Below are positions 14,349-29,569 of a stretch of 64,000 nucleotides of DNA, piece by piece. Position 1 is the stretch's first letter; the number at the start of each line of letters is the position of its first letter. Made by a program: the position numbers and the translations under genes. The notes under the pieces were generated by a model. The model ran no database searches and was not told the DNA's origin. It saw only the letters and a program-made list of their open reading frames with translations. Source of the stretch: Roseobacter sp. (GTDB lineage: Bacteria > Pseudomonadota > Alphaproteobacteria > Rhodobacterales > Rhodobacteraceae); contig JAGXGZ010000048.1 of the NCBI GenBank assembly GCA_024636495.1, positions 62,001 through 126,000 of the forward strand, read 5' to 3'.

Positions 14349-15389
14349 CTAAAAGAAGCGGTGGAGATCTGGTGACGGTGACCACAGAACAGGATCGGCA
14401 GTTTTCAGGGCGCAAAGCCTTTGCGTGATCTCATTAACACCGATGGCTTTGGCGCGCTTTGTCAGATCTGGCAGCCCCAGTTTGTACAGTGTCAGTTGAT
14501 CAAGCGCATCGCGCGTCAAGCCGTCGTTCAGCAAGGGTGCCGCTGCATTCATCACCCCCAGGATCAATGCGTCTGCCGCCGCTGTAAGGGTCAGGTCGAC
14601 CGGATCAATACCGGCAAAGCGGGCCTCCTCGACCACCATATCCTCCATTAGCGGGTCGATCACCGCACCGCCGCCACCGGGGTATCTGTACCATCCAACG
14701 CCAATAGATCGTCCCAACCGACCCTCGCGCACCATGCGGTCAGCAACAAGCAGATCGGTTCCAGCAGCTCTGCGCCGCGCAAATGCAACCTCAAGCCCGA
14801 TCGCGTCCTGCGCTTTCAGCAGCCCTTGAGTGAACCCAGCCTCTTCCAACGCCTCGTCCAGTTCCCATGGTGTTATGCCCACCAACAAAAGCTTATCCAC
14901 CAGCGCAAGGGCTGCGTCTTGCAAAACAGCACCTGCAAAAACGTCTCTGCGCGCGCTGACCGAAAACGGAACATTCAGCTGGGTGACAAACCTCCGTGCC
15001 GCAGCACTACTCGGGTCCAAGGCGCTCCCAAGCGCGATCTCGGCAAAACGCGGATCAAGCAAGTCCATCGCGACAGTGCGGTCTGGTTCTGGGGCGGATA
15101 CCAGCGCAAGTGGCCCCTCAAGCAAAACGATCAAAGCGTCTGTTGGCGCTTTGGCTGCATGATCGCCACGACACAGGAATACGTCGCACTTGCCTTTGAT
15201 CCTCGCTAAAACTGGGACGTTCAGATCAGGCAACCGCCGCCCGATGATCTCGCCGACGCGCACGGCATCGTTTGGATCAGGTTCTACAACCGTGACTTTG
15301 TGACCTGTGGCGCACATCGCCACGATCAAATCCAGACTTGCTGTACCCAGATCATATAAAACCATATCCAAAGCTAGCGGTGCCGTCAC
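14349..15389 (-). CDS. Degenerate 3-hydroxyacyl-CoA-dehydrogenase-like protein
   Basis: A 346-residue protein whose C-terminal half has two hydroxyacyl-CoA dehydrogenase C-domain repeats: GITPWELDEALEEAGF, DAIGLEVAFARRR, RMVREGRLGRSIGVGWYRYP, then a second copy from about residue 250. The N-terminal Rossmann part (residues 8-45) lacks the GxGxxG loop, reading LYDLGTASLDLIVAM. The catalytic HxxNP segment is also missing. It may have lost dehydrogenase activity and bind acyl-CoA only. The GTG start overlaps the boxR stop (GTGA), so it is the last, coupled gene of the box locus. It could act in downstream dehydroadipyl-CoA oxidation or be a ligand-binding partner; neither is shown. Confidence 0.7.
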   Translation of the reverse strand: MTAPLALDMVLYDLGTASLDLIVAMCATGHKVTVVEPDPNDAVRVGEIIGRRLPDLNVPVLARIKGKCDVFLCRGDHAAKAPTDALIVLLEGPLALVSAPEPDRTVAMDLLDPRFAEIALGSALDPSSAAARRFVTQLNVPFSVSARRDVFAGAVLQDAALALVDKLLLVGITPWELDEALEEAGFTQGLLKAQDAIGLEVAFARRRAAGTDLLVADRMVREGRLGRSIGVGWYRYPGGGGAVIDPLMEDMVVEEARFAGIDPVDLTLTAAADALILGVMNAAAPLLNDGLTRDALDQLTLYKLGLPDLTKRAKAIGVNEITQRLCALKTADPVLWSPSPDLHRFF

Positions 15390-16276
15390 TTGCCCGGCGT
15401 TTCCAAGAAATGCCGCTTTTCAATAATCTTCAGTAGGTCTTTCAACGATGCGTTAACCGGGCGGTTTGATGTATTGATCTGCGCATCTGCGCGCTCATAA
15501 AGCGGTGTGCGGGTATCCAGAAGGTTTTTAAGCTGCGTCATCGCCGCCGGATTACCCTCCATCGGGCGCACGTCACCTTGGGCGCGCACACGCTGCATGT
15601 ATTCCGACGGGCTCGTATAGACCCAAATCGTGTGAAACCGCTGCAACAGTGTCGCATAAGTCGCTTGTTCTGCAACGATCCCACCGGCCACGGCCAAAAT
15701 CATTTTATCATGGGTGGCGCTGACCCGCTCCAGGGCCTCAGCCTCAAGTTCGCGGTAGCCTTCCTGACCGTACAGCGCCATCACCTCTGCAACGGGCATG
15801 TCGCTGGCCAGTTCGATCTCTTTGTTCAACTCTACAAAGGGAAGATCCAGCGCCACACCCGCAAGCCTGCCGAGTGTGGATTTGCCAGCCCCGCGCAACC
15901 CGATCAAGCAGATGCGCCCTGACCGCATCGCTGTTGGGCTTTGCTTTGACAGAAGAGCCCTGACCTGCTGTTGAACATCTGGATTTGCCTTGCTGAACAA
16001 CCGGGCAACCCTTTCAACATCGCGATCAAAGGGAACGGTTTCCGATAGCAAAGTTTCTATCTTGAGATCCAACGCGACGGCCACCCTTTGCAACAAAATG
16101 ACCGAGATGTTGCCCTCTCCGGCCTCAAGCTGCGCCAGATACCGAGGGGATACGCCTGATATTTCCGACAATACCCGGCGCGGCAATCCTCGCGCCTTGC
16201 GTGCCTCACGGACCCGCGCGGCAAGCCGTTGGATCAGATCTTGCGCTTGGTTTGCGGTATGGGACGTGTCTGACAT
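15386..16276 (-). CDS. boxR: BoxR/BzdR-type transcriptional regulator
   Basis: A 296-residue fusion regulator. An XRE helix-turn-helix domain (residues about 16-72, with LSEISGVSPRYLAQLEAGEG) is joined by a linker to a shikimate-kinase-like domain from about residue 120. That domain carries the P-loop GLRGAGKS (126-133) and EAEALERV. This is the architecture of BzdR and BoxR of Azoarcus, whose kinase-like domain senses benzoyl-CoA and releases DNA. It is therefore the presumed repressor of the box locus. Two TGCA-containing sites lie in the 77 bases upstream, suggesting autoregulation. It is coupled to the downstream dehydrogenase-like gene. Confidence 0.93.
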   Translation of the reverse strand: MSDTSHTANQAQDLIQRLAARVREARKARGLPRRVLSEISGVSPRYLAQLEAGEGNISVILLQRVAVALDLKIETLLSETVPFDRDVERVARLFSKANPDVQQQVRALLSKQSPTAMRSGRICLIGLRGAGKSTLGRLAGVALDLPFVELNKEIELASDMPVAEVMALYGQEGYRELEAEALERVSATHDKMILAVAGGIVAEQATYATLLQRFHTIWVYTSPSEYMQRVRAQGDVRPMEGNPAAMTQLKNLLDTRTPLYERADAQINTSNRPVNASLKDLLKIIEKRHFLETPGK

Positions 16277-16289
16277 GAAGGGCCCCTGA

Positions 16290-16303
16290 TGTACAATAAT
16301 GCA
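16290..16303 (-). promoter_or_regulatory. Secondary TGCA-N6-NNCA site before boxR
   Basis: On the minus strand the site reads TGCATTATTGTACA, a TGCA box and a TACA box six bases apart. It starts exactly 50 bases from the stronger site at 16340, on the promoter-proximal side, 14 bases upstream of the boxR start codon. Confidence 0.4.
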
Positions 16304-16339
16304 AACCTATTCAAAAAACCGCCAACATCAACCGATTTA

Positions 16340-16353
16340 TGCGAAAAAGTGCA
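16340..16353 (-). promoter_or_regulatory. Candidate BoxR operator upstream of boxR
   Basis: On the minus strand the site reads TGCACTTTTTCGCA, matching the motif TGCACT-N4-YGCR also found before boxC and bclA. It lies in the boxR-thioesterase gap, 64-77 bases upstream of the boxR start codon. Confidence 0.6.
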
Positions 16354-16779
16354 TTAGTCGGCGCGGATAAGCGGTTCAACCACCTTACGGATACGGTCTG
16401 GCGCGGGCATGCTTTTGAACACATCGGCTTGGGTGAAGACGCACGTGAAACTGCCTGTGAAACACAGCACGTCGTTCTGGAAAGCCTTCATACCAAAGGT
16501 TATTGATTTCGTCCCCAGCCGCGTCGGATATGTCTCGCACATCAAGCGATGGCGTGGGGTGACAGGGCTGGAAAAATCCATCGACAGGTTCACGAAGGGT
16601 GTGCCCATGTTGCGGTCGATCTCCATCTGGAACCAACCCTCACCGTCGAAATGTTCCTCCCACCACGCGTTGATCGCATCCAGCGCGAACCACGGCAGGC
16701 GGGCGGTATAAGCGATCTGCGCCGGGTCGCAATCGCCCCAAGTAACGCGAATTTCATGCACAAAAGGCTGTGTTGTCAT
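16354..16779 (-). CDS. 4-hydroxybenzoyl-CoA-type thioesterase
   Basis: A 141-residue hot-dog-fold acyl-CoA thioesterase. GDCDPAQIAY (residues 15-24) contains the aspartate of the 4-hydroxybenzoyl-CoA thioesterase active site, and FALDAINAWWEEHF follows on the long helix. It starts one base after the boxA stop and precedes boxR. In aerobic CoA-dependent aromatic pathways, such thioesterases hydrolyse dead-end CoA thioesters and recycle coenzyme A, which is its likely role here, on benzoyl-CoA or an epoxide derivative. Confidence 0.88.
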   Translation of the reverse strand: MTTQPFVHEIRVTWGDCDPAQIAYTARLPWFALDAINAWWEEHFDGEGWFQMEIDRNMGTPFVNLSMDFSSPVTPRHRLMCETYPTRLGTKSITFGMKAFQNDVLCFTGSFTCVFTQADVFKSMPAPDRIRKVVEPLIRAD

Positions 16780-17958
16780 TCAGTAGGTTTCCACATGATA
16801 GCGGCCGTCTTCGCGCATGGTGTCCCGCAGCGCTGTCCACTGCTGCCCCATGCTTTCGGCGATTGAAGTCATCGCCTTTTCAACACCTTCTTCCATGCCG
16901 CGCAACCCGCAGATGTAGATATAGGTGTGCGGGTCGGCCAGCAATTCCGCAACGGAATCCTGCTCGACCAAGATACGATCCTGAACATATTCCTTAGCGG
17001 TGCCGACCTCGCGGCTGAACACCAGATGCTGTTTCAGCAAGCTTTCAGGGACCTTCTTGAGCGGGCCAAAATAGGGCAGGCTTTTGGGCGTGCGCGCGCC
17101 AAAAAACATGGTCATCCCGCCTGTCGCACCGCTGCGCTGGCGCTGCATGGTAAAGGCGCGCATGGGGGCCGATCCGGTGCCGGTGCATATCAACAACAGG
17201 TGTGCCTTCGGATCGCTGGGCATGAGGAAGGTCGCGCCAAAGGGGCCGGTGACCTCGACCTCGGCCCCAGTTTCCAGATCACACAAGAAATTCGACGCCA
17301 ACCCCTGCGCCTCGCGTTTCACCGTAAGCGAGATGTTGTGGTAGCCGGAACGTTCGCCGTCTCGCGGGCTTGAGATCGAATAAAGCCGGGGCAAATGCGC
17401 CTTGCCCTCGGCATCGGTGCCGGGGGGGATAATGCCAACCGATTGCCCTTCGAGCACGGGAAAGGGCAGCGCACCGGGGTCAAGAATGATGTGGCGCACG
17501 TCATGGTCAGGGTCATCGGTCAGACGGTAATTGCCCTGCACCTTCATCTTGGCAGGCTTGCCAAGGTTATACATGTTCACTGCAGGCTTGCCCGCTGTGG
17601 CAGGCGCCTTGGCCTTGCCGCCCGCACCCTTATGCGCCTCGGCCAGAAGAGCCGCGATCGGATCAACCTCGCCGTCGTCACCCGAGGAAGTCGCAACCTC
17701 GATATCCTCTTGGTCGGGCAGTTCTTCCATCTCGTATTGCTGTTCCAGCGTGTAGGGCACATCGACCACGCGCCATTCGTCGATCGAGCCTGTGGGGCAA
17801 ACGGGAATACAATCCATGCAGAAATTACAGGTGTCGAAATTCACCACGACATTGTTGTCGTCATGTTCAATCGCACCCACTGGGCAGGTCATTTCGCAGG
17901 TGTAACAGCGAATGCAAATCTCGGGATCAATAAGGTGCTGTTTGACGGGCTGGTTCAT
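16780..17958 (-). CDS. boxA: Benzoyl-CoA epoxidase reductase component BoxA
   Basis: Iron-sulfur flavoprotein that passes electrons from NADPH to BoxB for 2,3-epoxidation of benzoyl-CoA. The 392-residue product has two [4Fe-4S] ferredoxin motifs, C15-x2-C18-x2-C21-x3-C25P and C44-x2-C47-x2-C50-x3-C54P. An acidic, Ala-rich linker (about 75-125) comes next. The ferredoxin-NADP reductase module has RLYSISSPRDGE for FAD and LLICTGTGSAPMRAF for NADP, and ends in Y, as in that family. The start at 17958 has AGGAG upstream; the longer frame has none. It lies between boxB and the thioesterase gene. Confidence 0.95.
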   Translation of the reverse strand: MNQPVKQHLIDPEICIRCYTCEMTCPVGAIEHDDNNVVVNFDTCNFCMDCIPVCPTGSIDEWRVVDVPYTLEQQYEMEELPDQEDIEVATSSGDDGEVDPIAALLAEAHKGAGGKAKAPATAGKPAVNMYNLGKPAKMKVQGNYRLTDDPDHDVRHIILDPGALPFPVLEGQSVGIIPPGTDAEGKAHLPRLYSISSPRDGERSGYHNISLTVKREAQGLASNFLCDLETGAEVEVTGPFGATFLMPSDPKAHLLLICTGTGSAPMRAFTMQRQRSGATGGMTMFFGARTPKSLPYFGPLKKVPESLLKQHLVFSREVGTAKEYVQDRILVEQDSVAELLADPHTYIYICGLRGMEEGVEKAMTSIAESMGQQWTALRDTMREDGRYHVETY

Positions 17959-17981
17959 TACATACGCTCCTGCGGCTAAGA

Positions 17982-18043
17982 TGCATATGGGCGGGCCAAA
18001 GCCCACCCACCATTTTTTCAGCGTAGGGTGGGTGCAACCCACC
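17982..18043 (-). repeat. Intercistronic hairpins between boxB and boxA
   Basis: GGTGGGT-GCA-ACCCACC at 18027-18043 is a perfect 7-bp hairpin. A second ACCCACC at 18005-18011 can compete for the same GGTGGGT. GGGC/GCCC around a CAAA loop lies just beyond. These structures sit just after the boxB stop in the transcript and may slow decay or partly terminate. The GGTGGGT/ACCCACC core looks like a dispersed intergenic repeat, which needs a genome search. Confidence 0.55.
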
Positions 18044-18050
18044 GCCCGCT

Positions 18051-19502
18051 TTAGGCCATGTGCAACTTCACATATTCAAAGTCACCGGGCTTATTGTCGA
18101 TCCCGACCTTGGGTGGGGCGATCCAGCTGGCGTATTTACCGGGCTCATAGCACGGCTTCATCAGGGACTGGATATAGTCGCCATCCGCTTTCGTGGGCAG
18201 CCATTCATCGCGGCGCTTGTGCCATTCGTCGGCCGATATGATGGTGCCCGCGGGGTCAACGGCGACGGCGCTGAACACGCCGATCTGACGGTGGAAGCCT
18301 TCGTGCGGCATCTTGAATTCAAAATCCACGCCCGCCTTCTGGATCTGCTTGTTCCAACGGCCCACACCACCAGCGGCGTCTCGGACATAATCGTCGCGCA
18401 AACGCATGTTGATCGCGGTCAAGGCAGGCACGTCCTCGGTGACGATCTTGCCTTCCTTGATAGACGTCACAGCATAGGTATCGCTTTGCAGCTTATGATC
18501 ATCGTCAATGCGCTGCTCCATATAGCGGCCTTTGATGCCATAGTTGAAAGCATTGGCCGCGTTGGTCGACACTTCCTGACCGAACAGATCAAGCGACAAT
18601 GTGTAGTGTAGGTTCAGCTTTTTCTGGATCGTCGGCAGGTCAATCACGCCCAGATCACGGATCTTGTTGATGTCATAGGGATCAGTGATGCCGTGCTTGT
18701 TCATCGCCTCAAGCGTAGCCTGAATGGTGCGGCCCACGCCGGTTTCGCCGACAAACATGTGGTGCGCTTCTTCGGTCAGCATAAAGCGACAGGTACGCGA
18801 CAGCGGGTCAAAACCGGATTGGGCAAGGCTTTCAAGCTGCATCTTACCGTCACGGTCAGTGAAATAAGTGAACATGAAGAAGGACAGCCAGTCCGGCGTT
18901 TCCTCGTTGAAGGCCCCCAACATGCGCGGGCTATCGTCCGAGCCGGAGGAGCGTACCAGCAGGTCATCCGCTTCTTCGCGACCATCACGGCCGAAATACT
19001 TTTGCAGCAGATAGACCATTGCCCACAGGTGGCGGCCTTCTTCGACATTGACCTGAAACAGGTTGCGCATGTCATAAAGCGACGGTGCCGTCAGGCCAAG
19101 GAAACGCTGCTGTTCAACCGACCCTGGCTCTGTGTCGCCCTGGATTACGATCAGCCGCTTAAGCATATTGCGGTATTCGCCCGGCACTTCCTGCCATGCA
19201 GCTTCACCGTAATGTTCGCCCATGGGGATTTTGCGATCTTCAACGGCGGGGGCCAGCAAAACGCCCCAACGGTATTCGGGCATCTTCACATAGTCGAATT
19301 TTGCCCAACCTTTGGGGTCCACCGACACGGCGGTGCGCAGATAAACCATGGATTCCTGAAAGTTCTGTGGGATCAGATCGTTCCACCAGTTGATGTAACC
19401 GGGGTGCCATTTTTCCAGCGCTTTGAGCACCTTTTTGTCTTGGCTCAGGTTCACGTTATTGGGGATCTGGGTGTCGTAGCTTACATTGATCAGGTCGAGC
19501 AT
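18051..19502 (-). CDS. boxB: Benzoyl-CoA 2,3-epoxidase oxygenase component BoxB
   Basis: Di-iron oxygenase that converts benzoyl-CoA to 2,3-epoxybenzoyl-CoA with O2 and electrons from BoxA. The 483-residue product is of family length. The metal-binding ExxH pairs are visible at E155-G-R-H158 (in VNVEEGRHLW) and at E244..H247 (in MLTEEAHHMF). GAGGAG precedes the ATG. Transcription order is boxC-boxB-boxA, with structured gaps on both sides of boxB. Confidence 0.96.
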   Translation of the reverse strand: MLDLINVSYDTQIPNNVNLSQDKKVLKALEKWHPGYINWWNDLIPQNFQESMVYLRTAVSVDPKGWAKFDYVKMPEYRWGVLLAPAVEDRKIPMGEHYGEAAWQEVPGEYRNMLKRLIVIQGDTEPGSVEQQRFLGLTAPSLYDMRNLFQVNVEEGRHLWAMVYLLQKYFGRDGREEADDLLVRSSGSDDSPRMLGAFNEETPDWLSFFMFTYFTDRDGKMQLESLAQSGFDPLSRTCRFMLTEEAHHMFVGETGVGRTIQATLEAMNKHGITDPYDINKIRDLGVIDLPTIQKKLNLHYTLSLDLFGQEVSTNAANAFNYGIKGRYMEQRIDDDHKLQSDTYAVTSIKEGKIVTEDVPALTAINMRLRDDYVRDAAGGVGRWNKQIQKAGVDFEFKMPHEGFHRQIGVFSAVAVDPAGTIISADEWHKRRDEWLPTKADGDYIQSLMKPCYEPGKYASWIAPPKVGIDNKPGDFEYVKLHMA

Positions 19503-19521
19503 TTGTTTTCTCCTCGGGGGT

Positions 19522-19563
19522 CAAAATCTTTGAAGATTTTGGGACGGATTATTTAAATAATCC
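19522..19563 (-). repeat. Two perfect palindromes between boxC and boxB
   Basis: CAAAATCTT-TG-AAGATTTTG at 19522-19541 is a perfect 9-bp hairpin. GGATTATTTAAATAATCC at 19546-19563 is a perfect 18-bp palindrome. They fill most of the 68-base gap just upstream of the boxB Shine-Dalgarno. Tandem hairpins here could mark an RNase processing site or bind a regulator. Confidence 0.7.
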
Positions 19564-19570
19564 GAGCCCG

Positions 19571-21229
19571 TTACACACGTTCCATATTATATTCGCCACG
19601 CACGCCTGTACCGTAGCGTTGCAGCGCACCGTCTTTTCCTACCGCATTGGGACGCTGGAAAATCCAGTTCTGCCACGCGGTGAGGCGACCGAAAATGCGG
19701 GTCTCCATGGTTTCGGGGCCGGCGAAACGCAGGTTCGCCTCCATCCCCGTCATTGCATCCGGGCTAAAGCTGGCGCGCTCTTCCATGAACAAGCGCACCT
19801 CATCTTCCCAGTCGATATCGTCGTAGATGTAAGTAACCAACCCTGCTTCGTCCGCTGCATCAGCCTCAAGCGCCTCACCTTTGAGGGCTTCCAGCTTGGC
19901 GATATCCTCGGGCGTACCCAGAAACCGTGTTTCAAGACGGGTCAGGTCGTTGCCCATCTTGTAGGTGCCGAAATTACCATCGGTCAGAGTCACGGTCGCC
20001 AAGGGGCGGTTGTCGCCGTCAAATTCCTCTAGCATCATATAGCTACGATCCACGGACCACAGCAGTTCCGCCAAAGGTCCCGCAAAGCACGATCCATGTT
20101 CCACAATCGCCACCAAGCTGCGCGAGGTCATATCGATACGTTTCAGCAGACGCTTCCAGTATTGCAGGATTTCATTGGCCAGCCAGTGATCCTTGTTGGT
20201 CAGCAACAACGCTTCATGCGCGACCAGTAGTTCGGGGTCTCCCTGGGTCTGGAATTCGATCAAGCCCAGTTCTTTTTCATTATTGCGCAGGTGCAGTATC
20301 GCGTCGTCAAGCTCGCGCGCGCAGCGCAAAATCCACGCCTCGGCTCCCTCTGCTGTCAGCGCGTTCATGTCGGCAGGGGCCGCCACATCAGGGCCTTTGA
20401 TCGTCACGGTGGCCCGTTTTGCAGCGCGGTGCAGAACGACCTCGACCGTGGAATAGCTGATGCCATCTGCCGCAAACGTGCGGGCAATGGGGGTCAATTC
20501 AACACCCTTGCTGACGTCCGCCTTGGACGACGCAGCAGCCATCTCTTTCGCCCGTTCGACCACGGTTTCGTCAAACTTCGAATTCGGGATCACCTCATCG
20601 ACCAGACGCCAATCCTTGGCGCGCTTGCCTTTCACGCCTTCCTCGATCGAGCAGAATACGTCGGCGCGGTCGCGGCGCACCATTCGTTTGTCGGTAACAC
20701 GGGTGAGGCCACCAGTACCGGGCAAAACCGCCAACAACGGCACCTCGGGCAAAGATACAGAGGACGTGCTGTCATCGGTCAGCATGATGTAGTTGCATGC
20801 CAGCGCCAGTTCATAGCCGCCACCGGCGCAGGCACCCTTCACAGCGCAGATATAGTTCTGACCACTGTCGGCCATCGCGGCCTCGAAGGTATTGCGCGTT
20901 TCGTTAGTGAACTTACAGAAGTTGACCTTGTGGCTGTGCGCCGCACCGCCCAGCATCCGGATGTTGGCACCGGCGCAGAAAACCTTTTCCTTGGCCGATT
21001 GCATGACCACGACCTTGATCTCGGGGTGCTCGAACCGCATCCGCTGAACGATATCGGCCAGTTCAATATCGACGCCCAGATCATAGGAGTTGAGTTTTAG
21101 CTCGTACCCTTCGAACAAACCGCCTTTTTCGTCCACGTCCATATACAAGTTCGCGATGGGACCATCGTATTCGATTTTCCAATGGCGGTACTTCGACGGG
21201 TCAGTTTGAAAGTCGATAATCTTGGTCAC
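19571..21229 (-). CDS. boxC: 2,3-epoxybenzoyl-CoA dihydrolase BoxC
   Basis: Ring-opening enzyme: adds two waters to 2,3-epoxybenzoyl-CoA, giving 3,4-dehydroadipyl-CoA semialdehyde and formate. The 552-residue product is the double-size crotonase typical of BoxC. It has KEKVFCAGANIRMLGG as first oxyanion-hole loop (about residues 80-95), AVKGACAGGGYELALACNY, and a second crotonase-like half with VAIVEHGSCFAGPLAELLW. The GTG at 21229 is taken as start because AAGGAGA lies upstream and the protein then begins VTKIIDFQTDPSKYRHW. The ORF open to 21310 adds an unrelated arm. A candidate BoxR operator lies 130-143 bases upstream. Confidence 0.95.
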   Translation of the reverse strand: MTKIIDFQTDPSKYRHWKIEYDGPIANLYMDVDEKGGLFEGYELKLNSYDLGVDIELADIVQRMRFEHPEIKVVVMQSAKEKVFCAGANIRMLGGAAHSHKVNFCKFTNETRNTFEAAMADSGQNYICAVKGACAGGGYELALACNYIMLTDDSTSSVSLPEVPLLAVLPGTGGLTRVTDKRMVRRDRADVFCSIEEGVKGKRAKDWRLVDEVIPNSKFDETVVERAKEMAAASSKADVSKGVELTPIARTFAADGISYSTVEVVLHRAAKRATVTIKGPDVAAPADMNALTAEGAEAWILRCARELDDAILHLRNNEKELGLIEFQTQGDPELLVAHEALLLTNKDHWLANEILQYWKRLLKRIDMTSRSLVAIVEHGSCFAGPLAELLWSVDRSYMMLEEFDGDNRPLATVTLTDGNFGTYKMGNDLTRLETRFLGTPEDIAKLEALKGEALEADAADEAGLVTYIYDDIDWEDEVRLFMEERASFSPDAMTGMEANLRFAGPETMETRIFGRLTAWQNWIFQRPNAVGKDGALQRYGTGVRGEYNMERV

Positions 21230-21318
21230 GGGCAGTCTCCTTGAGCAGGCTCGGTCTTGGCTGCGGTTTGGCCAATGCGGCCCTTGAGGTTCATAATCCA
21301 AATATGGCATGATACTGC

Positions 21319-21332
21319 CACATATATTTGCG
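21319..21332 (-). promoter_or_regulatory. Weak secondary site before boxC
   Basis: On the minus strand the site reads CGCAAATATATGTG, a poor match to the paired TGCA-type boxes. It lies 40 bases from the main site at 21359. Listed because similar secondary sites occur at spacings of 50 and 51 at the other two promoters. Confidence 0.25.
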
Positions 21333-21351
21333 AATCCCTCGCGTAATCGAC

Positions 21352-21831
21352 CTAAATTTGCGCTATAGTGCAGTCCATCGCAGACTTTCGGGTGCAGGAG
21401 GCCATTTGTGCAACTTCCTGCACATGCATCCCCAGAATCGCTTGGTGCCCATCACATTGTGCCAAATGGCTTACGACCATCTCGCAAAGCCGCAAGCTGG
21501 CCCGGGGTTTGCCCATCTTGAGTTTAAGCCGAGCATTCGCCAGCTGGATCACTGCTTGCGTCAAAGCCCGTTCTGGCGACGCGTCAGGGCAGCGCATCCA
21601 GACAGCTTCCAAAACCTCGTGGCATTCCCAGAAATATCCTGCATCAAGATAGGCGCGCCCCGCCAACCAAGCCGACGTTTGGCCAAGCGCGTCGACTTGT
21701 ACATCAGGTGTCACACTCGCCTTGATCCCGTCGAACCAGTCTTCGGGATGACGCGCGTTCTGCCCCGGTACATAGGCGTGTGGTGGCATTGGGGTAAATG
21801 CCACCGGATCAGGCCATTTGCACAGTTTCAC
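21352..21831 (-). CDS. DUF309 family protein
   Basis: A 159-residue protein with the DUF309 signature YFWECHEVLEAVWM (about residues 66-79), a helical bundle with an H-E pair that may bind metal. Family function is unknown. The start overlaps the end of the alpha/beta hydrolase gene by 23 bases. An internal ATG at 21789 (beginning MPPHAYVPGQ) would avoid the overlap and is a real alternative. The 3' end carries the candidate boxC operator. Its position between the hydrolase and boxC genes suggests co-expression with the box pathway. Confidence 0.75.
   Translation of the reverse strand: MKLCKWPDPVAFTPMPPHAYVPGQNARHPEDWFDGIKASVTPDVQVDALGQTSAWLAGRAYLDAGYFWECHEVLEAVWMRCPDASPERALTQAVIQLANARLKLKMGKPRASLRLCEMVVSHLAQCDGHQAILGMHVQEVAQMASCTRKSAMDCTIAQI
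21359..21372 (-). promoter_or_regulatory. Candidate BoxR operator upstream of boxC
   Basis: On the minus strand the site reads TGCACTATAGCGCA, matching TGCACT-N4-YGCR. It overlaps the last codons of the DUF309 gene and lies 130-143 bases before the boxC GTG, so a boxC promoter inside the operon is likely. Confidence 0.55.
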
Positions 21832-22633
21832 GTTCGATCCGGTCCAGACGCAAGCAGAATTCGCTGATAGCTTCCAACGTCGCGTGCGGCTGGTCCAGAT
21901 GCGGTGCGTGTCCGCAACTGTCTAAAATCGCCGTTTCAACAGGGGAATAAATCCGGGTCTCGATTTCTTCGATCTGGGCAAGCGTACCGTATGCATCTTC
22001 GCGGCCCTGAATGGCCAGAACGGGGATGCGCAGATGGTCAATTGCATCCGCAACATTCCACGCCTCGAACCCCGGATCGGTCCAAGCATCGTGCCAACCG
22101 CTGAAGGCCACGTCGACGTTTGCATGATATTTCGACAGCTTAGCTTTTAGGTCTCCCGTGGCATAGGCTTTGCCCGCCGCTTTGATCGCAGCCAGCCCCA
22201 TGGGTTCGGTAAAGAAATGCGGGGCCATCAGGATCAACGACCGAATGCGCATGTCAGAGACCGATCCGGCGTAGATCGTGGCAATGGTCGCCCCGTCGGA
22301 GTGTCCCAACAGCACAGCCTGCTCTATCCCAGCTGAATCCAGCACATCGCCAAAGGCTTCCGTCGCCTCGCGCGTCATGTAATCCAGCGGGCGCGGCAGA
22401 TCGACGGGGGCAGACCCGCCATAGCCCGCCCGCGAATAGGCCAGCACACCAAAGCCAGTCGCATCGACCAAGGCCTGCGGGAAATCGCGCCAAAGGGCAA
22501 CAGACCCCAATCCTTCGTGCAGCAGCACCAGCGTCGGTGCCTCGGACGGCTTTGGGCCCCAAGCCGCATATTCCAGCGTTTTGCCACCCGCCTGAAGCGT
22601 CAGCCCCGCGTCATTTGACCAAGTCACGCCCAT
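21809..22633 (-). CDS. Alpha/beta hydrolase
   Basis: A 274-residue alpha/beta-hydrolase-fold enzyme. LVLLHEGLGSVALW holds the oxyanion region (about residue 38), LLGHSDGATIA the nucleophile serine (about residue 108), and CGHAPHLDQP the catalytic histidine near the C-terminus. The ATG at 22633 overlaps the bclA stop as TGATG and has GGAGG eight bases upstream, better than the ATG at 22639. It is coupled to bclA. It may hydrolyse a lactone or CoA thioester side product of the box pathway; some box clusters contain a lactonase. No direct evidence for the substrate. Confidence 0.85.
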   Translation of the reverse strand: MGVTWSNDAGLTLQAGGKTLEYAAWGPKPSEAPTLVLLHEGLGSVALWRDFPQALVDATGFGVLAYSRAGYGGSAPVDLPRPLDYMTREATEAFGDVLDSAGIEQAVLLGHSDGATIATIYAGSVSDMRIRSLILMAPHFFTEPMGLAAIKAAGKAYATGDLKAKLSKYHANVDVAFSGWHDAWTDPGFEAWNVADAIDHLRIPVLAIQGREDAYGTLAQIEEIETRIYSPVETAILDSCGHAPHLDQPHATLEAISEFCLRLDRIERETVQMA

Positions 22634-24171
22634 CAACATCCCTCCCGCAATTTGAACCGCTGTATCTTCCCCGTCGCCGTCTTAGGTAGATCTTCGACAA
22701 CCTCGATCCAGCGGGGGTATTTCCATTTGCCGACCTTGTCTTTCACATGGTCCTTTAGTTCAGCCAACAATGCATCGTCTGCCGGACCGTTCTTGAGCAC
22801 AATGAACGCTTTGGGTTTCTCCAGACCATCCGCATCTTGGGCGGCGACCACCGCCGCTTCGAGCACGCGCGGATGGCTGATCAACGCGCCTTCAACCTCG
22901 AAGGGGGACAGCCAGATGCCGGACACTTTGAACATATCGTCGGTACGCCCACAGTAGATATAGCGCCCATCATGGCCCAGCTCGTATTTGTCGCCTGTGC
23001 GCGTCCACACCCCTTCGAATGTGCTGCGGGATTTGTCGCGCTGGTTCCAATAGCAATTGGCCGCCGACGCCCCGCTGACAAGCAGTTCACCAACGCCGCC
23101 GGGCATGACATCAAGGCCCTCCTCGTCCACCAGCCGCAAGGCATAGCCCGGCACGGCAACGCCAGAGGTCCCATAAACCAGATCGTTTTTGCGGTTGCTG
23201 AGAAAGATATGCAGCATTTCTGTCGACCCGACCCCGTCCAGAATGGCCGTGCCAGTATGTTTTTCCCACCTCAACCCAACCTCTTCGGGCAGGGCTTCGC
23301 CTGCGGAAATACAGGTGCGTAACGGCGCTGTCACCGGACCGTTTTTATCCATATGAGCCACAATTGCGGCAAAAAGCGTTGGCACGCCGCAGAAAATAGT
23401 CGGCTGTTCGGTATTAATGATCTCAACCATATCATCGGGTGTCGGGCGGCCAGCGAACAACAATGTGGTCGCACCAACAGACAAAGGAAAGGTCATCGCA
23501 TTGCCCAAGCCGTAGGCGAAAAAGAACTTGGCGGCCGAGAAGACCAGATCATCTTCAGCGATCTCAAGCACTTGTTTGCCATAGGTATCCGACGTTGCAC
23601 GCAAGGCTGAGTGGACATGGGCAACGCCCTTGGGTTGCCCAGTGGAGCCAGAAGAATAGAGCCAGAAGGCGACCTCGTCAGGGCAGACGGGCAAGGTTTC
23701 CGCAGGTGTGGCACCGTCCAGAAAGTCATCATAGGGCGTGGAGCCGTCAACAACGTCACCAATCACAACGACCTGCCGCAAATAGGGGTTATCTGCGACT
23801 GCGTCCTTTACGACATCCCACAAAGCGGCCGAAACAAAAAGGATAGCAGCCCGAGCATCGCGTAAGATCGCGTCATAGACAGACGTCGCCAAAAGCGTGT
23901 TCAAAGGTACCGGGATCACGCCGCATTTCAGCGCACCCCAGAATATCTGAGGAAACTCGATATGATCCAGCACCAGCATCGCGGCGCGTTCTTCGGCGCG
24001 GACCCCCGCCTTGCGCAATGCGCCTGCGACCTGCGTCGCCCCGCTCGCCAAATCGCCGTAGCTTAGGCTGCGCCCGCTGCCAATTTCACGATAGGCGATC
24101 TTGCCGCCGCGCCCTTCGTCGATATGGCGATCTACAAAGTACGTTACAGCATTAGCAGTGGCGGTGATCAT
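22633..24171 (-). CDS. bclA: Benzoate-CoA ligase
   Basis: Activates benzoate to benzoyl-CoA with ATP, the entry step of the pathway. The 512-residue ANL-superfamily enzyme has YSSGSTGQPKGVAHVHSAL (P-loop-like AMP motif), DGVGSTEMLHIFLSN (A5 region), RTGDKYELGHDGRYIYCGR (A7) and KTATGKIQRFKLRE with the catalytic lysine near the C-terminus. The start at 24171 is preceded by GGGAGGA; the ATG at 24210 is not. Two TGCA-type sites lie within 90 bases upstream, so transcription probably starts here as well as upstream. It heads the bclA-hydrolase-DUF309-boxCBA series. Confidence 0.93.
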   Translation of the reverse strand: MITATANAVTYFVDRHIDEGRGGKIAYREIGSGRSLSYGDLASGATQVAGALRKAGVRAEERAAMLVLDHIEFPQIFWGALKCGVIPVPLNTLLATSVYDAILRDARAAILFVSAALWDVVKDAVADNPYLRQVVVIGDVVDGSTPYDDFLDGATPAETLPVCPDEVAFWLYSSGSTGQPKGVAHVHSALRATSDTYGKQVLEIAEDDLVFSAAKFFFAYGLGNAMTFPLSVGATTLLFAGRPTPDDMVEIINTEQPTIFCGVPTLFAAIVAHMDKNGPVTAPLRTCISAGEALPEEVGLRWEKHTGTAILDGVGSTEMLHIFLSNRKNDLVYGTSGVAVPGYALRLVDEEGLDVMPGGVGELLVSGASAANCYWNQRDKSRSTFEGVWTRTGDKYELGHDGRYIYCGRTDDMFKVSGIWLSPFEVEGALISHPRVLEAAVVAAQDADGLEKPKAFIVLKNGPADDALLAELKDHVKDKVGKWKYPRWIEVVEDLPKTATGKIQRFKLREGC

Positions 24172-24192
24172 CGCAGTCCTCCCAAACATCGA

Positions 24193-24206
24193 TGCTTTAT
24201 TTTGCA
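24193..24206 (-). promoter_or_regulatory. Secondary TGCA-type site before bclA
   Basis: On the minus strand the site reads TGCAAAATAAAGCA, inside a larger palindrome GATGC...GCATC (24191-24208). It lies 51 bases from the main site at 24244, towards the start codon. Confidence 0.45.
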
Positions 24207-24243
24207 TCAAATCCGGAGGTCCGCAAGGATTGCGGCATAATGA

Positions 24244-24257
24244 CGCATTTTAGTGCA
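24244..24257 (-). promoter_or_regulatory. Candidate BoxR operator upstream of bclA
   Basis: On the minus strand the site reads TGCACTAAAATGCG, matching TGCACT-N4-YGCR. It sits just after the stop of the upstream acyl-CoA ligase gene and 73-86 bases before the bclA start. Confidence 0.6.
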
Positions 24258-26072
24258 TTAAATTGCTGAAATGCGTGCCGTATCTTCTGTGTCGTAGATG
24301 CGCGCGACCAAATCAGCACGGCGCATCAGAATTTTGGGAAAGTTAAGGTTGCCTTTGGCCGTTGCTTCACCGTCGCCCATGGACGGCGGATCGGTCATGA
24401 TCAGCGCCGCCGCGACGCGGTTGGCACTGCCGCTGGTCTTCGCCGCAAGCACCGACAGCCGTGCGCCGATTTCCGCCATCAAGGGCGCGCAGATCATCGC
24501 ACCGTTGTCGTCCGTTGCCTCCCAGCCCTTTGCCGCCATGGTGGCACGGTTGGGCACGATCAACATGCCCACCTGTTCGCGCCCCTGCCCGGTCAACACC
24601 AGATCAGTCACGTAGGGTGCCAAAGCGGCCAGCAGATCAAGGCGCAGCTGTGCGGCGCGTACCCATGTGCCGGTCATCAATTTGAAATCCTCGGACATCC
24701 GCCCGTCAAACATTAGCCCGCGCGAGGGATCTTTGGCGTCGATCAGACGCATCGCGTCACCGCTGATGAAAAACCCTTCGTCGTCAAAAGCCTCGGCGGA
24801 TTTGGCGGGGTTATTGTGATAACCTTTAGTGATCGTATCGCCGGCAATGCGCACATCGCAGCGCCCGTCGGCATCGGGGATCAACTTGACCGTGACACCG
24901 GGCAAAGGCACACCCACGATGCCCGCCCCTTTGGCAGGTTCATGCTGCAACAAGGCGGCGGGCGCAGATTCTGTCAGCCCCCAGGACGAGTTGATCAGCG
25001 GCAGCTTGCCACGGGTCTCCATCGCAAGGCGTTCAAGTTCAGCCCAAGTCGCCTGCGGCAAGGAGGCGCCTGCATAAAAGATCATGTCGAGCTCGGCAAA
25101 GTAGCGGTCACACAGCTTTTTGTCCTCGTTCAGCGCCGTGACAAGCTGGGCAAACCCCACGGGCACGTTGAAGCTGATCGTCGCGGACACCTCGCGCAGG
25201 TTGGCGAGGGTTTTGTCAAACATTCCCGGCGCAGGCTTGCCGTCGTCGATGTAGAAACTGCCGCCATTGGCCAGCATCAGGTTAAAGTTATGCGAGCCGC
25301 CAAAGACGTGGTTCCACGGCAGCCAATCCACCAAGACCGGCGGGCGCGCGGTGACAAAGGGCAACGCTTGAGCCAGCTGCGCCTGGTTCGTGGTCATCAT
25401 CTTTTGCGTCGTCAGAACCCCTTTGGGGTCAGAAGTCGAACCTGACGTCATCAGGATTTTGGCCAGCGTATCGGGCGTGATCTTGGCAAAGGTCGCATCG
25501 ACATCCGCGCCACTGGGGGTCAGAAAATCGTTAAAATTGGTCGCGCCGCTGTCGCCGGGAAGCGACGACAGCTTTTCCGCATCCGCAAGGCTCTCCAGCG
25601 CGAACGCATCAGCATAACGCGGTGCATCATCGGCGTAGACCATGCCGGGTTTCACCAGTTTGACCACATAATCCAAGCGCGGCAAAGCGGCGGGGATCAG
25701 GGAATATTGCTCGGCAACGGGAACGGTCGGCACGCCCGCATATTGCGCGGCCAGCGACAAAAGCGCGTGGTCGATGCTGTTGCCCGACACAATCAGAATC
25801 GGCTTGTCAGGTCCCAGATCACGCGAGATCAGGTGGCCCGCAATGCTGCGCACCATTTCCAAAACCTGCACATAAGTCAGCTTGCGCCAGCCATCGCCGG
25901 ACCGTTCAGCCAAGAAGACATGATCGGGGGTTTTCGCCGCCCAATGGTGCAACCAATCCCCGGTACACCGCGCGACGGGCCCCAGTTCGTAGCCTGATGT
26001 CAGCAAAATGGAGCCATCTTCACGATCCGTGCGCGTGACGTTATGCGGTAAGAAATTCACATGATCGGTCAT
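24258..26072 (-). CDS. Feruloyl-CoA-synthase-like acyl-CoA ligase
   Basis: A 604-residue ANL-superfamily ligase. LGPVARCTGDWLHHWA and DHVFLAER near the N-terminus, LMTSGSTSDPKGVLTTQ (AMP motif), LINSSWGLTESAPAA, FISGDAMRLID and FDGRMSEDFKL fit the feruloyl-CoA synthase branch, which is longer than benzoate-CoA ligase. The C-terminal region contains AKGNLNFPKILMRR in place of the usual K-motif. The start at 26072 has GAGGG upstream; the frame open to 26153 would begin with TTG. It lies between TRAP and bclA genes and probably activates a second aromatic acid (hydroxycinnamate or hydroxybenzoate type) imported by the TRAP system. Confidence 0.8.
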   Translation of the reverse strand: MTDHVNFLPHNVTRTDREDGSILLTSGYELGPVARCTGDWLHHWAAKTPDHVFLAERSGDGWRKLTYVQVLEMVRSIAGHLISRDLGPDKPILIVSGNSIDHALLSLAAQYAGVPTVPVAEQYSLIPAALPRLDYVVKLVKPGMVYADDAPRYADAFALESLADAEKLSSLPGDSGATNFNDFLTPSGADVDATFAKITPDTLAKILMTSGSTSDPKGVLTTQKMMTTNQAQLAQALPFVTARPPVLVDWLPWNHVFGGSHNFNLMLANGGSFYIDDGKPAPGMFDKTLANLREVSATISFNVPVGFAQLVTALNEDKKLCDRYFAELDMIFYAGASLPQATWAELERLAMETRGKLPLINSSWGLTESAPAALLQHEPAKGAGIVGVPLPGVTVKLIPDADGRCDVRIAGDTITKGYHNNPAKSAEAFDDEGFFISGDAMRLIDAKDPSRGLMFDGRMSEDFKLMTGTWVRAAQLRLDLLAALAPYVTDLVLTGQGREQVGMLIVPNRATMAAKGWEATDDNGAMICAPLMAEIGARLSVLAAKTSGSANRVAAALIMTDPPSMGDGEATAKGNLNFPKILMRRADLVARIYDTEDTARISAI

Positions 26073-26155
26073 AAAACCCTCTGCCCACATCGTACGCGTG
26101 ACGGGCGCATAAGTTGGTGAAGCCTTGCACACATGACGCAAAGCAAAGGCCAAGC

Positions 26156-27475
26156 CTAGCTTGGCAAAAGAAACAGCGTGATCGCCGGGAACATCACAAG
26201 AATGACCACGCGCACGATGTCAGAGCCTACAAAATACATCACGGCCTTGTAGGTTTCGGTCATCGGTGTTTCGCGGTCCATCGAGTTGATGATAAACAGG
26301 TTCATCCCCACCGGCGGCGTGATCAGCCCCACCTCGACCACGATCAGCACGAGGATGCCGAACCAGATCGCCAGATGTTCGGTGCTCATCCCGAAATCCA
26401 TCGCGGAAATCACCGGAAAGAAGATCGGCACGGTCAGCAGGATCATCGAAAGGCTGTCCATCAAACAGCCGAAGATCAGATAGAAAATGAGGATAATCGT
26501 CAGAACCAACCATGGGCTATAATCTTGGCCCACGACCCAATCGGCCATGAACTGGGGCACACCCGACAGGGCCAAAAAGCCATTATAGAATCCTGCCCCC
26601 AAGACGATGAAAAAAATCATTCCAGTGGTTTTCGCCGTCCCCAGCAGGCTTTCGCGCAACACAGACCAATTCAAGCTGCCCGCCAACAAGGCAGCCAGCC
26701 CCGTGCCAGCTGCCCCGATGGCTGATCCTTCGGTCGGCGTGAACCACCCTAGATAGATGCCCCCCACCACGATGAAGAAGATCACCAGCACAGGCCACGT
26801 ATCGGCCAAAGCACGAAAACGATCTGCCATGGGAACGGCAGGGCGTGTGCCTGCGGAATTGGGGTTCAAGCGCACATAAATCGAAATCGTGAGGATGTAG
26901 CCCAGTGCCGCGAGAATCCCCGGGACGAAGGCAGCCAAGAACAGCTTGGCGATGTTTTGCTCGGTCAGAATGGCGTATATGACCAAAATCACCGATGGTG
27001 GGATCAAGATGCCCAGCGTGCCCCCTGCTGCCAAGGTGGCCGTCGAAAACCCACCAGAATAGCCGTAGCGGCGCAGCTCTGGCAGGGCGACTTTGGACAT
27101 CGTCGCGGCTGTTGCAAGCGAGCTGCCGCAAATTGCACCAAAGCCCGCGCAGGCACCGACCGCGGCCATGGCGACACCGCCACGGCGGTGCCCTAGGAAA
27201 CTTTCAGCGGCTTTGAAAAGTGCCGTGGACATGCCCGACAAGGTCGCGAACTGCCCCATCAGCAAGAACATCGGAATAATTGTCAGCGAATAGCTGGAAA
27301 ACGTCGAGTAGGTCTCGGACTTCAGCTTGGCGAGCAGGGGCGTAGGATTTCCCCCCATCGCCATATACCAGCCCCCAAAACCGCACAGCAGCATCGCAAG
27401 CCCGATAGGCGCGCGCAAAAAGATCATCAACAAAAGGACGGGGAAGGACCAAAAGCCCATTTCTAGATTGGTCAC
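26156..27475 (-). CDS. dctM: TRAP transporter large permease DctM
   Basis: A 439-residue inner-membrane protein with about twelve hydrophobic segments. Blocks such as FLRAPIGLAMLLCG, GACAGFGAICGSSLATAATM, TLAAGGTLGILIPPSV and FTPTEGSAIGAAGTG are characteristic of DctM. It uses the sodium gradient to import acids delivered by DctP. The GTG at 27475, one base after the dctQ stop and with AAGGGG upstream, is taken as start; an ATG at 27460 is the alternative. Organised dctP-dctQ-dctM in transcript order. Confidence 0.94.
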   Translation of the reverse strand: MTNLEMGFWSFPVLLLMIFLRAPIGLAMLLCGFGGWYMAMGGNPTPLLAKLKSETYSTFSSYSLTIIPMFLLMGQFATLSGMSTALFKAAESFLGHRRGGVAMAAVGACAGFGAICGSSLATAATMSKVALPELRRYGYSGGFSTATLAAGGTLGILIPPSVILVIYAILTEQNIAKLFLAAFVPGILAALGYILTISIYVRLNPNSAGTRPAVPMADRFRALADTWPVLVIFFIVVGGIYLGWFTPTEGSAIGAAGTGLAALLAGSLNWSVLRESLLGTAKTTGMIFFIVLGAGFYNGFLALSGVPQFMADWVVGQDYSPWLVLTIILIFYLIFGCLMDSLSMILLTVPIFFPVISAMDFGMSTEHLAIWFGILVLIVVEVGLITPPVGMNLFIINSMDRETPMTETYKAVMYFVGSDIVRVVILVMFPAITLFLLPS

Positions 27476-27476
27476 G

Positions 27477-28058
27477 TCAATGCGCCCCTTGTTCGCTGGG
27501 TAGAATGTTTCCACCTGTCACAGCTTCAATCACGCGAATGACCGCACAATAAACGGCAACGATGCACGAGATGATGCCAGCAGCAAAGCTGGCCGCGTAG
27601 GCCCACCAGACAGGGAATTGCAAAAACAATGTCGTCTCGCCGTTGCCGATATAGCGCTGCATCCCCTCGAAAAGCCGCCAGATGATCAGAAGAATAACCG
27701 CTGTCAGAATGACTTCCCAAAAGGCGGCGATCCAGCGGTTGGCCCGCTGCGACAGAAACGAGGTAAAAACATCGACACTCGCGTGTGAACCGTAAAACTG
27801 GCAGATCGGCAAAAACGAGAAGATCGCAAACGCAACACCGGCTTCAAGAAGCTCGTAATTGCCGTTGATCTCGCCAAGGCCCAGATCAAGAAGCGTCTGT
27901 GACAAGCCTGTCAACTGAGACTGGAAAAAGTCGGTATGAAGCACCTTGTTGATGGTGCGCCCAATGATTGAAACAGTTGTCATCAGGATCAGCCCTGTCA
28001 AAACAAGACCCCCGATCACTGCTGTAAACCGGGCAAGAAACTGGATCAGCCGATGCAT
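27477..28058 (-). CDS. dctQ: TRAP transporter small permease DctQ
   Basis: A 193-residue membrane protein with four hydrophobic segments and the WWAYAASFAAGI segment near the C-terminus typical of DctQ. It scaffolds DctM in the TRAP complex. The ATG at 28058 (MHRLIQFLARF) is chosen over a TTG ten codons upstream. It follows dctP after 82 bases, which contain a small hairpin. Confidence 0.88.
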   Translation of the reverse strand: MHRLIQFLARFTAVIGGLVLTGLILMTTVSIIGRTINKVLHTDFFQSQLTGLSQTLLDLGLGEINGNYELLEAGVAFAIFSFLPICQFYGSHASVDVFTSFLSQRANRWIAAFWEVILTAVILLIIWRLFEGMQRYIGNGETTLFLQFPVWWAYAASFAAGIISCIVAVYCAVIRVIEAVTGGNILPSEQGAH

Positions 28059-28098
28059 ATGAAGTCTCTTTTTTTGGGAAATCGTCAAGGCGAAGGGC

Positions 28099-28121
28099 CT
28101 GCCGCGCTAATTGCGCAGCAG
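28099..28121 (-). repeat. Intercistronic hairpin between dctP and dctQ
   Basis: CTGC-x-GCGC pairs with GCGC-x-GCAG around a 5-base loop with one mismatch. It lies between dctP and dctQ, where such hairpins often protect the abundant binding-protein mRNA. Confidence 0.45.
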
Positions 28122-28140
28122 ACCGTTTTTCCAAGATGGC

Positions 28141-29175
28141 TTACTTTCCGTAAGCGTCCATCAGCGATTTGGCTTCGTCAATCAGCGCTTGGCCGTCGAT
28201 GCCCTTGGTCTGCATGTCAGCAACCCAGCTTTCATAGATCGGCTGGGATGCGTCGCGCCAAACCTGAGTTTCTTCTGCGGTCAGCGTCACGATATTGTTG
28301 TTCAGATCAACGGCAATTTGACGTGCGGGGCCATCAGCATCCGCTTGTGTGCCGCCTGCAAAGATCGAGAATTCCAGCCCGGAGTTGTCATCGATAACTT
28401 TCTTCAAATCATCTGGCAGGCTGTCATACTTGTCTTTGTTCATCGCAAGAACGAACGTCAGCGTATAAAGAGCAGCCCCTGTGAATTCTGTGTGGTTCTT
28501 CACCAGCTCAGGTACTTTCAGCGCAGTCGTCACTTCCCAAGGGATGGTTGTCCCGTCAATCACACCCTTGGAAAGACCTTCGGGAATCGCCGGAACGGGC
28601 ATACCGACAGGCGTCGCACCGGTAGTTTCCAAAAGCTGGTTCACCAGACGCGATCCACCGCGAATTTTCAAACCCTGCATGTCGTCAGGCGTGCGAACTT
28701 CTTTGTTGGTATGCAGCAGGCCCGGTCCATGTACCCATGTTCCCAAGATGTGAACGTCTTTGAATTCTGTGTCTTTCATGTGGGTTTCGAACATCTGCCA
28801 ATAGGCAGAGCTGGCTGCACGCGCATCTGTCACCATAAATGGCAGCTCGAACACTTCGGTCGATGGATAGCGGCCCGGCGTATAGCCGACGACAGTCCAG
28901 ACAATATCGGCAACGCCATCAATTGCCTGATCCATCAACTCCGGCGGTGTGCCGCCAAGCTGCATGGACGCAAAGCGATCGATCTTGATCCGGTCGCCAC
29001 TATCGGCCTCTACCTTGTCAGCCCAGACATCTAGCACCTGCACTGGCACGTTGGCCTGTGGGGGCAGAAACTGGTGCATCCGCAGTGTCACTTCTTGTGC
29101 TAAAGCGCTTGTTGCGCCCAAACCGACAGCAAGCGCTGCGGCAGCGGCACCCATGAGGGTTCTTCTAAAAATCAT
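28141..29175 (-). CDS. dctP: TRAP transporter periplasmic binding protein DctP
   Basis: A 344-residue solute-binding protein. A Sec signal (MIFRRTLMGAAAAALAVGLG, cleavage likely near ALAQE) precedes a DctP domain with LKIRGGSRLVNQLLETTGA, which includes the arginine that usually salt-bridges the ligand carboxylate, and PIPEGLSKGVIDGT-like geometry. The start at 29175 has GGGAGAG upstream; the frame open to 29265 has none. Ligand unknown. Linkage to two aryl-CoA ligase genes and the box operon suggests an aromatic carboxylate. Confidence 0.93.
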   Translation of the reverse strand: MIFRRTLMGAAAAALAVGLGATSALAQEVTLRMHQFLPPQANVPVQVLDVWADKVEADSGDRIKIDRFASMQLGGTPPELMDQAIDGVADIVWTVVGYTPGRYPSTEVFELPFMVTDARAASSAYWQMFETHMKDTEFKDVHILGTWVHGPGLLHTNKEVRTPDDMQGLKIRGGSRLVNQLLETTGATPVGMPVPAIPEGLSKGVIDGTTIPWEVTTALKVPELVKNHTEFTGAALYTLTFVLAMNKDKYDSLPDDLKKVIDDNSGLEFSIFAGGTQADADGPARQIAVDLNNNIVTLTAEETQVWRDASQPIYESWVADMQTKGIDGQALIDEAKSLMDAYGK

Positions 29176-29479: not shown

Positions 29480-29555
29480 GTCATCCACTATTCTAAGCCA
29501 ATCACAAAACTACGATTGAAGGGGGATTGCATGTCGTTCCCCAGCCCTTTCTTTT

Positions 29556-29569
29556 TGCACTTTCATGCA
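29556..29569. promoter_or_regulatory. Fourth TGCACT-N4-YGCR site, TRAP operon region
   Basis: TGCACTTTCATGCA on the plus strand contains two perfect TGCA boxes six bases apart and fits the motif found before bclA, boxC and boxR. It lies 381 bases upstream of the dctP start and in the opposite orientation to the others. Confidence 0.45.

Follow-up and report, generated by a model that had tools for sequence, protein, structure and literature searches.

In a 64,000-nucleotide stretch of Roseobacter sp. (assembly GCA_024636495.1, contig JAGXGZ010000048.1, positions 62,001 to 126,000; hereafter the window), the recurring string TGCACT-N4-YGCR appears to be a partial view of the operator for BoxR, the XRE/shikimate-kinase-type repressor encoded in the same gene cluster. 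Judging from sequence, we place the probability of this reading at roughly 93%. BoxR operators at boxR, boxC, and bclA constitute the best reading; an operon for a tripartite ATP-independent periplasmic (TRAP) transporter is, less surely, a probable further BoxR target. Sites, partner sites, conservation, phasing, and the association with BoxR are features observed by computation. The operator type is already known and has been described in Betaproteobacteria. What is added here is its occurrence in this alphaproteobacterial family and in others, a collinear layout with four operator regions, a probable TRAP member, and a measured helical phasing.

The first-pass annotation of the window noted three minus-strand copies of the string, each before a box gene (boxC, boxR) or bclA, and counted four copies by eye. 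An exact scan confirmed both statements, as exactly four matches were retrieved and all lie in the box/TRAP locus. On the minus strand, the copy at 16340-16353 is located 64 bp before boxR. The copy at 21359-21372 falls within the last codons of the upstream DUF309 open reading frame (ORF), 130 bp before the likely boxC start (21229), and the copy at 24244-24257 directly follows the stop of an acyl-CoA synthetase ORF, with 73 bp separating it from the likely bclA start (24171). The plus-strand copy (29556-29569) is situated between tRNA-Met and the TRAP operon, about 380-390 bp before the likely dctP start (29175). The chance expectation had been estimated at 0.5 copies. Dinucleotide shuffles of the window gave a mean of 1.00 instead (100 shuffles, largest count 3), but the excess of four copies over chance held (0/100 shuffles reached four).

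A motif was derived independently from related species. boxR was found (E <= 1e-40) in 46 of 198 family genomes, including that of the window, and up to 20 kb around the gene was collected from the 45 other BoxR genomes, along with two loci from Roseobacter metagenome-assembled genomes (82% BoxR identity). For the dyad count, 122 upstream regions of boxR, boxC, and bclA were compared with 194 control regions. Upstream regions of under 150 bases or cut by a contig end were dropped, as were genes with a BLAST match starting beyond query residue 40; one region was kept per gene and locus, and thioesterase, acs, and trapP were in neither set. TGCA-containing words topped the list of tetramer dyads, with TGCA-N6-TGCA present in 35/122 box regions versus 3/194 controls. 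Palindromic expectation maximization (EM) on those regions, with 40 starts and with the window and its three closest relatives (loci L031 to L033) left out, yielded tt.TGCA.TATA.TGCA.aa in the seven best of the twelve best runs (log-likelihood gain about 1253). This motif agrees with the palindrome ATGCACTATAGTGCAT reported for BoxR/BzdR sites of Betaproteobacteria by Suvorova and Gelfand (2019, PMC6449761). The first-pass consensus needs correction: the two bases following TGCA vary, and the core reads TGCA-N6-TGCA around a TATA-like center. As a motif, TGCACT-N4-YGCR was rejected because it demands too much at one position (the CT is variable) and too little at another (the right arm is TGCA).

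Scanning the window with the position weight matrix (PWM) from the other species placed the nine best positions in the box locus, all within or adjoining its four gene-start regions. The first-pass copies ranked 1 (24244), 2 (16340), 5 (21359), and 8 (29556). What the annotation had overlooked, in noting a single copy per promoter, is a partner site 50-61 bp from each of the four copies; the sites occur in helically phased sets. All predicted sites at boxR, boxC, and bclA are on the minus strand. At the boxR promoter, the predicted distal operator (16337..16356; 18.1 bits, rank 2) aligns with a similar TAATGCAYTTTT site in L031 and L032, and the predicted proximal operator (16287..16306; 17.8 bits, rank 3), 50 bp away and with 3 mismatches to the published palindrome, is also scored at about the same place in L031, L032, L033, and L034. 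The pair is kept in L031 and L032. At the boxC promoter, the predicted distal operator (21356..21375; 15.6 bits, rank 5) is accompanied at 53 bp by a degenerate proximal one (21303..21322; 10.9 bits, rank 12), where L032 retains a TGGCA-N6-TGCCA palindrome with an altered center. A possible third, weak boxC site inside the DUF309 ORF (21406..21425; 14.3 bits, rank 9) is not conserved in L032. The predicted bclA operators comprise a distal site (24241..24260; 18.1 bits, rank 1), with a similar site in L032, and a proximal site 51 bp away (24190..24209; 15.5 bits, rank 7), matched in L032 by a 12.4-bit site at the same spacing. Before the TRAP operon, two plus-strand candidates are 61 bp apart: 29553..29572 (14.6 bits, rank 8), an exact TGCA-N6-TGCA, and its partner 29614..29633 (15.5 bits, rank 6), with 3 mismatches to the published palindrome. 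Individually, the window sites match the motif imperfectly, and the only exact TGCA-N6-TGCA is that at 29556. Of the remaining high-ranking positions, rank 4 (24251) overlaps rank 1, and rank 10 is inside the hydrolase gene. We rejected overlapping sites stepping by 10 bp (24241/24251) as a general feature, as an exact TGCA at +10 from the best site occurred only twice in 139 regions, with both sides included (mean of 2.03 per offset). Because TGCA at +10 is no more common than the mean, the 24251 match most likely arises from the arm it shares with rank 1.

Queried with the published core, TGCACTATAGTGCA, a pattern from outside this data set, the genome has one best match, the boxC copy at 21359 (1 mismatch). 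At up to 3 mismatches, 56 places were retrieved genome-wide, 5 of which are in the box locus (window positions 16290, 21359, 24244, 29556, and 29617), against about 0.2 expected per 15 kb by simple arithmetic. The genome-wide total is not itself enriched (56 places versus 95 for the reversed pattern). Four of the candidates elsewhere in the genome (C3:7029, C94:43803, C81:130143, and C81:144757) had no gene of the window cluster nearby by tblastn of the fetched stretches. A genome-wide scan with a 20-position profile gave no match at an E value of 10; this null result reflects only a lack of power, the best E value of that model being 0.31 even when the window is searched by itself.

Conservation before the same genes in relatives supports the first-pass proposal of a BoxR operator, and it is strong both within the family and in other families. 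Within the family, a site of at least 8 bits was detected in 38/38 boxC, 32/47 boxR, and 26/37 bclA regions (mostly the training set) and in 13/15 trapP regions, which were held out of training. Control regions rarely contained a site: boxB, 1/40; boxA, 1/39; thioesterase, 3/32; lactonase, 0/35; DUF309, 1/31; trapM, 0/21; trapQ, 1/20; acs, 0/14; and hyp346, 0/8. Family gene order is mostly that of the window, and the arrangement is collinear in nearly all loci showing both the boxR-boxCBA and the bclA parts. Beyond the family, BoxR loci were drawn from wider genome sets (53/385 and 39/398 genomes, own-family members included), giving a sample of 20 loci, one to three per family group, plus two plasmid loci, one from the betaproteobacterium Mycetohabitans endofungorum. 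At a threshold of at least 11 bits, a site was present in 43/57 boxR, boxC, and bclA regions (boxC, 17/18; boxR, 19/22; bclA, 7/17) versus 0/56 control regions. With 300 column-permuted PWMs, the count on these out-of-family regions averaged 1.3 (maximum, 21), compared with 43 for the true matrix. In the plasmid collection, near-full-length BoxR relatives were found in 10/83 matching records; the Methylobacterium plasmid locus (L151) encodes a BoxR relative, but it has no site and lacks every other query gene.

The sites are also arranged in helical phase. Spacings were taken between neighboring, nonoverlapping sites of at least 11 bits. The 102 family spacings cluster at 19-23, 29-34, 40-43, 50-54, 61-64, 73-79, and 84-86 bp, and eight more are spread over 96-121 bp. 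The best period is 10.7 bp (R = 0.62), a value reached by 0/5000 uniform random spacing sets, and the signal remained when distinct spacings were counted once per gene (n = 58, R = 0.55, 0/5000 random sets). Out of family, 32 spacings gave an R of 0.66 at the period fixed beforehand (0/5000). Counting only exact TGCA words in the surroundings of the best site, over 139 regions, gave the same spacing peaks. The window spacings of 50 bp (boxR), 51 bp (bclA), 53 bp (boxC, proximal pair), and 61 bp (TRAP) fit this phasing. A more speculative extension, which we regard as doubtful, is that BoxR assembles on one DNA face, with spacing free to drift from two to eight turns but phase held constant, and that dimers at the four promoters bridge over 13 kb, such that the collinear cluster and the TRAP importer would be silenced and released as one unit by benzoyl-CoA.

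The presence of a BoxR gene in the cluster, as the annotation had stated, was verified by profile search: boxR (15386..16276, minus strand) scores 358.9 bits against NCBIfam NF006015 (cutoff of 204) and matches Pfam HTH_3 and SKI. Its product has both hallmarks of BoxR/BzdR regulators, an N-terminal XRE helix-turn-helix (HTH) and a C-terminal shikimate-kinase-like domain with a Walker A motif. Across 70 BoxR sequences, the Walker A sequence GLRGAGKSTLG is conserved and the HTH segment around SxRYLAQLExGxGNIS shows at least 80% conservation per letter.

Operators of another benzoate regulator, whether BenR/XylS type (TGCA-N6-GGNTA) or global, could in principle resemble these sites, given that BenR half-sites also contain TGCA (PMC6449761 and PMC6678401). 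We consider this explanation very unlikely. The TGCA arms are symmetric rather than TGCA-N6-GGNTA; the EM was forced to be palindromic, but the dyad count was not, and in that unbiased count the right arm is TGCA, unlike in BenR/XylS-type repeats. The sites also follow BoxR. The annotation had named many unrelated genomic copies as grounds for doubt, which holds for the string (26 exact copies) but not for the refined core, TGCANTATANTGCA, found exactly in only 16 places in 198 family genomes. It occurs in 12/46 BoxR-positive versus 3/152 BoxR-negative genomes. Of its 13 places in BoxR-positive genomes, 12 are at most 300 bp before boxC, boxR, boxB, bclA, or trapP, and the remaining one (genome G005) is between trapM and acs; the window's own genome contains no exact copy. 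BoxC (E <= 1e-150) and BoxR were each found in 46/198 family genomes, with both in 44. Strong sites precede boxC even where the box cluster is apart from boxR, by about 1 Mb in G148 and on separate contigs in G153 and G169, and sites precede boxR even without boxA, boxB, or boxC in the 20 kb fetched (L047, L055, and L072). Conversely, G102, with BoxC but no BoxR found, has no site in the 955 bp between its DUF309 and boxC matches (best score of 1.1 bits). This is a single informative case, and the absence of BoxR from G102 is not certain because the assembly is a draft of about 870 contigs. G019, likewise with BoxC and no BoxR found, was excluded as a control, its contig ending at the boxC start. 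Six ORFs scanned in L204:1956-2910, before boxC in a genome without BoxR found, gave no Pfam match.

Still less probable is that the palindromes are core promoter elements, with the TATA center serving as a -10 element, rather than repressor sites. TATAAT does occur at the center of 22/189 scored sites, and an operator overlapping a -10 element is possible. However, three -35-like words (TTGAC, TTGCC, and TTGTC) were tried and none accumulates at any constant distance upstream of the sites, and a fixed -35 element was rejected for these words. Promoters also carry several phased copies, and the TGCA arms are conserved on both sides of the center.

Several results weigh against BoxR operators as the explanation. 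By itself, TGCACT-N4-YGCR is not enriched, since the window has 20 matches with one mismatch allowed (25.3 expected) and the 3.88-Mb genome has its 26 exact copies versus 34 for a reversed control pattern. The five EM runs after the best seven ended in a different, lower-scoring palindrome (1223). Across 30 simulated 64-kb sequences, the best PWM score averaged 14.8 (largest, 23.7), and the window count at the 8-bit threshold (19 hits) is no higher than that in the simulations (20.8); thus, the placing of the sites, not their number, carries weight. The boxR site at 16340 differs from the published palindrome at four positions and is for that reason missing from the 56 places above. A scan for sigma-70 promoters was not above chance (10 versus 8.3 expected). 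No site was detected at the thresholds used in 15/47 boxR and 11/37 bclA regions of the family or in 14/57 regions outside it. In five outside loci, boxR and bclA share one site, so that five of the 43 outside positives are counted twice, and the counts are not fully independent because the loci are related by descent. Finally, the window TRAP sites are about 390 and 450 bp before dctP, whereas most trapP sites in the relatives scanned are at 30-140 bp. The lack of enrichment of the string and the chance occurrence of single PWM scores of this size in 64 kb would suit a loose string located beside box genes by accident, but coincidence is the least credible explanation, considering that a motif derived independently in other species has all nine of its best window positions in the box locus, that sites outside the family separate box from control regions (43/57 versus 0/56), and that helical phasing is present in and out of the family.

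For BoxR as the regulator, a mechanism can be proposed by analogy. The annotation had linked TGCA-containing repeats to BzdR/BoxR-family regulators, which agrees with PMC6449761 and PMC6678401. In Azoarcus sp. CIB, BzdR operators, TGCA(N6)TGCA, were located by footprint, and BzdR binds its TGCA-palindrome operators as dimers, cooperatively, forming a large complex; OR1 is enough to repress, and release by benzoyl-CoA requires both OR2 and OR3 (PMC6678401). BoxR is described as a benzoyl-CoA-dependent repressor of box genes (PMC4424350). BoxR binding, repression, cooperativity, and the benzoyl-CoA response in the window are inferred from Azoarcus BzdR/BoxR. A BoxR dimer probably recognizes the palindrome TGCA-N6-TGCA with its A/T-rich center. 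Site pairs precede boxR, boxC, and bclA (about five turns apart) and the TRAP operon (six turns), and, being whole helical turns apart, paired sites would lie on one DNA face. Paired dimers would act jointly in blocking transcription. Benzoyl-CoA, the BclA product, would bind the shikimate-kinase-like domain and release the dimers, such that the pathway would be induced by its own first intermediate and boxR would control itself.

The window shares with the betaproteobacterial BoxR/BzdR system the ATGCACTATAGTGCAT palindrome with its TGCA-N6-TGCA core, multiple sites several turns apart (almost always multiple and mainly 3-5 turns in Betaproteobacteria), and clusters with boxR, boxCBA, and bclA (PMC6449761). 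The sequence features of BoxR/BzdR operators are found here, namely, TGCA-N6-TGCA with an A/T-rich center and phased multiple sites located before box genes in BoxR genomes. The layout differs. Betaproteobacterial clusters are divergent, with ABC transporter or benK genes (same source), whereas here the divergent boxR-boxCBA/bclA arrangement is absent: all genes of the cluster run in one direction on one strand, predicted operators occur at four points, and the TRAP transporter is a probable member. Similarly, the PN promoter of Azoarcus sp. CIB carries several BzdR operators (OR1-OR3), of which OR2 and OR3 have TGCA(N6)TGCA and OR1 covers the start region; that promoter drives the anaerobic bzd operon and combines three operators with an AcpR site (PMC6678401), whereas here pairs are found at aerobic box promoters. 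BenR/XylS sites share the TGCA word and the control of benzoate or toluate genes but belong to another regulator family and consist of asymmetric repeats. No description of BoxR sites in Alphaproteobacteria or Rhodobacteraceae was found in the literature searched, which leaves most subscription journals outside and in which PMC10803450, where accessible, treats mostly gene context.

By window ORFs and profile and Pfam scans, the locus is a single collinear minus-strand run in the order dctP-dctQ-dctM, acyl-CoA synthetase, bclA, hydrolase, DUF309, boxC, boxB, boxA, thioesterase-like gene, boxR, and a gene with a 3-hydroxyacyl-CoA dehydrogenase C-terminal domain. The likely starts of boxC, bclA, and dctP were assigned from profile positions, Shine-Dalgarno-like sequence, or a signal-peptide-like start. 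The TRAP genes dctM, dctQ, and dctP (26156..29175) match Pfam DctM, DctQ, and DctP, and tRNA-Met occupies 29700-29776. Between the candidate TRAP operators and dctP is an inverted repeat (29451-29479; AAATATTGTTAG-N5-CTAACAATATTT), the core of which, TTGTTAG-N5-CTAACAA, is the only exact copy in the genome and is present in none of 212 loci compared, except L080, a stretch of the same genome; it is possibly the site of another regulator. The acyl-CoA synthetase (24258..26153) is PRK12582-like (628 bits, under the model cutoff of 777). bclA (22633..24171; TIGR02262), for benzoate-CoA ligase, has GGGAGGA before its likely ATG start. The alpha/beta hydrolase (21809..22639; Pfam Abhydrolase) is a probable lactonase, a role inferred from literature clusters, and the DUF309 ORF (21352..21831) matches PF03745. 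boxC (19571..21229) matches TIGR03222 from ORF residue 32, with AAGGAG before the likely GTG start; boxB (18051..19502) matches TIGR03225; and the boxA ORF (16780..18042) matches TIGR03224 from residue 33, the true start probably being further in. The thioesterase-like gene (16354..16779; Pfam 4HBT_2) occupies the same place in many family loci.

The gene 3' of boxR (14349-15389) overlaps the boxR end and has a 3-hydroxyacyl-CoA dehydrogenase C-terminal domain as its sole Pfam match. Relatives of this gene adjoin boxR in many family loci, and its product is a candidate for a missing step after the box pathway. Among the loci in which boxR is away from boxABC (L047, L055, and L072, each with an operator-like site before boxR), the L047 site is beside TRAP genes. 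In genome G080, box genes are divided over two contigs (L061 and L208) in complementary, interleaved fashion, which may be an assembly oddity.

Taken together, these analyses turn a string noticed by eye into a quantitative operator model that is valid beyond the class of its original description. The phasing yields a simple rule, with phase kept and spacing free. The model predicts which genes BoxR would control in Rhodobacteraceae, including a TRAP importer that is probably for benzoate or a related acid.

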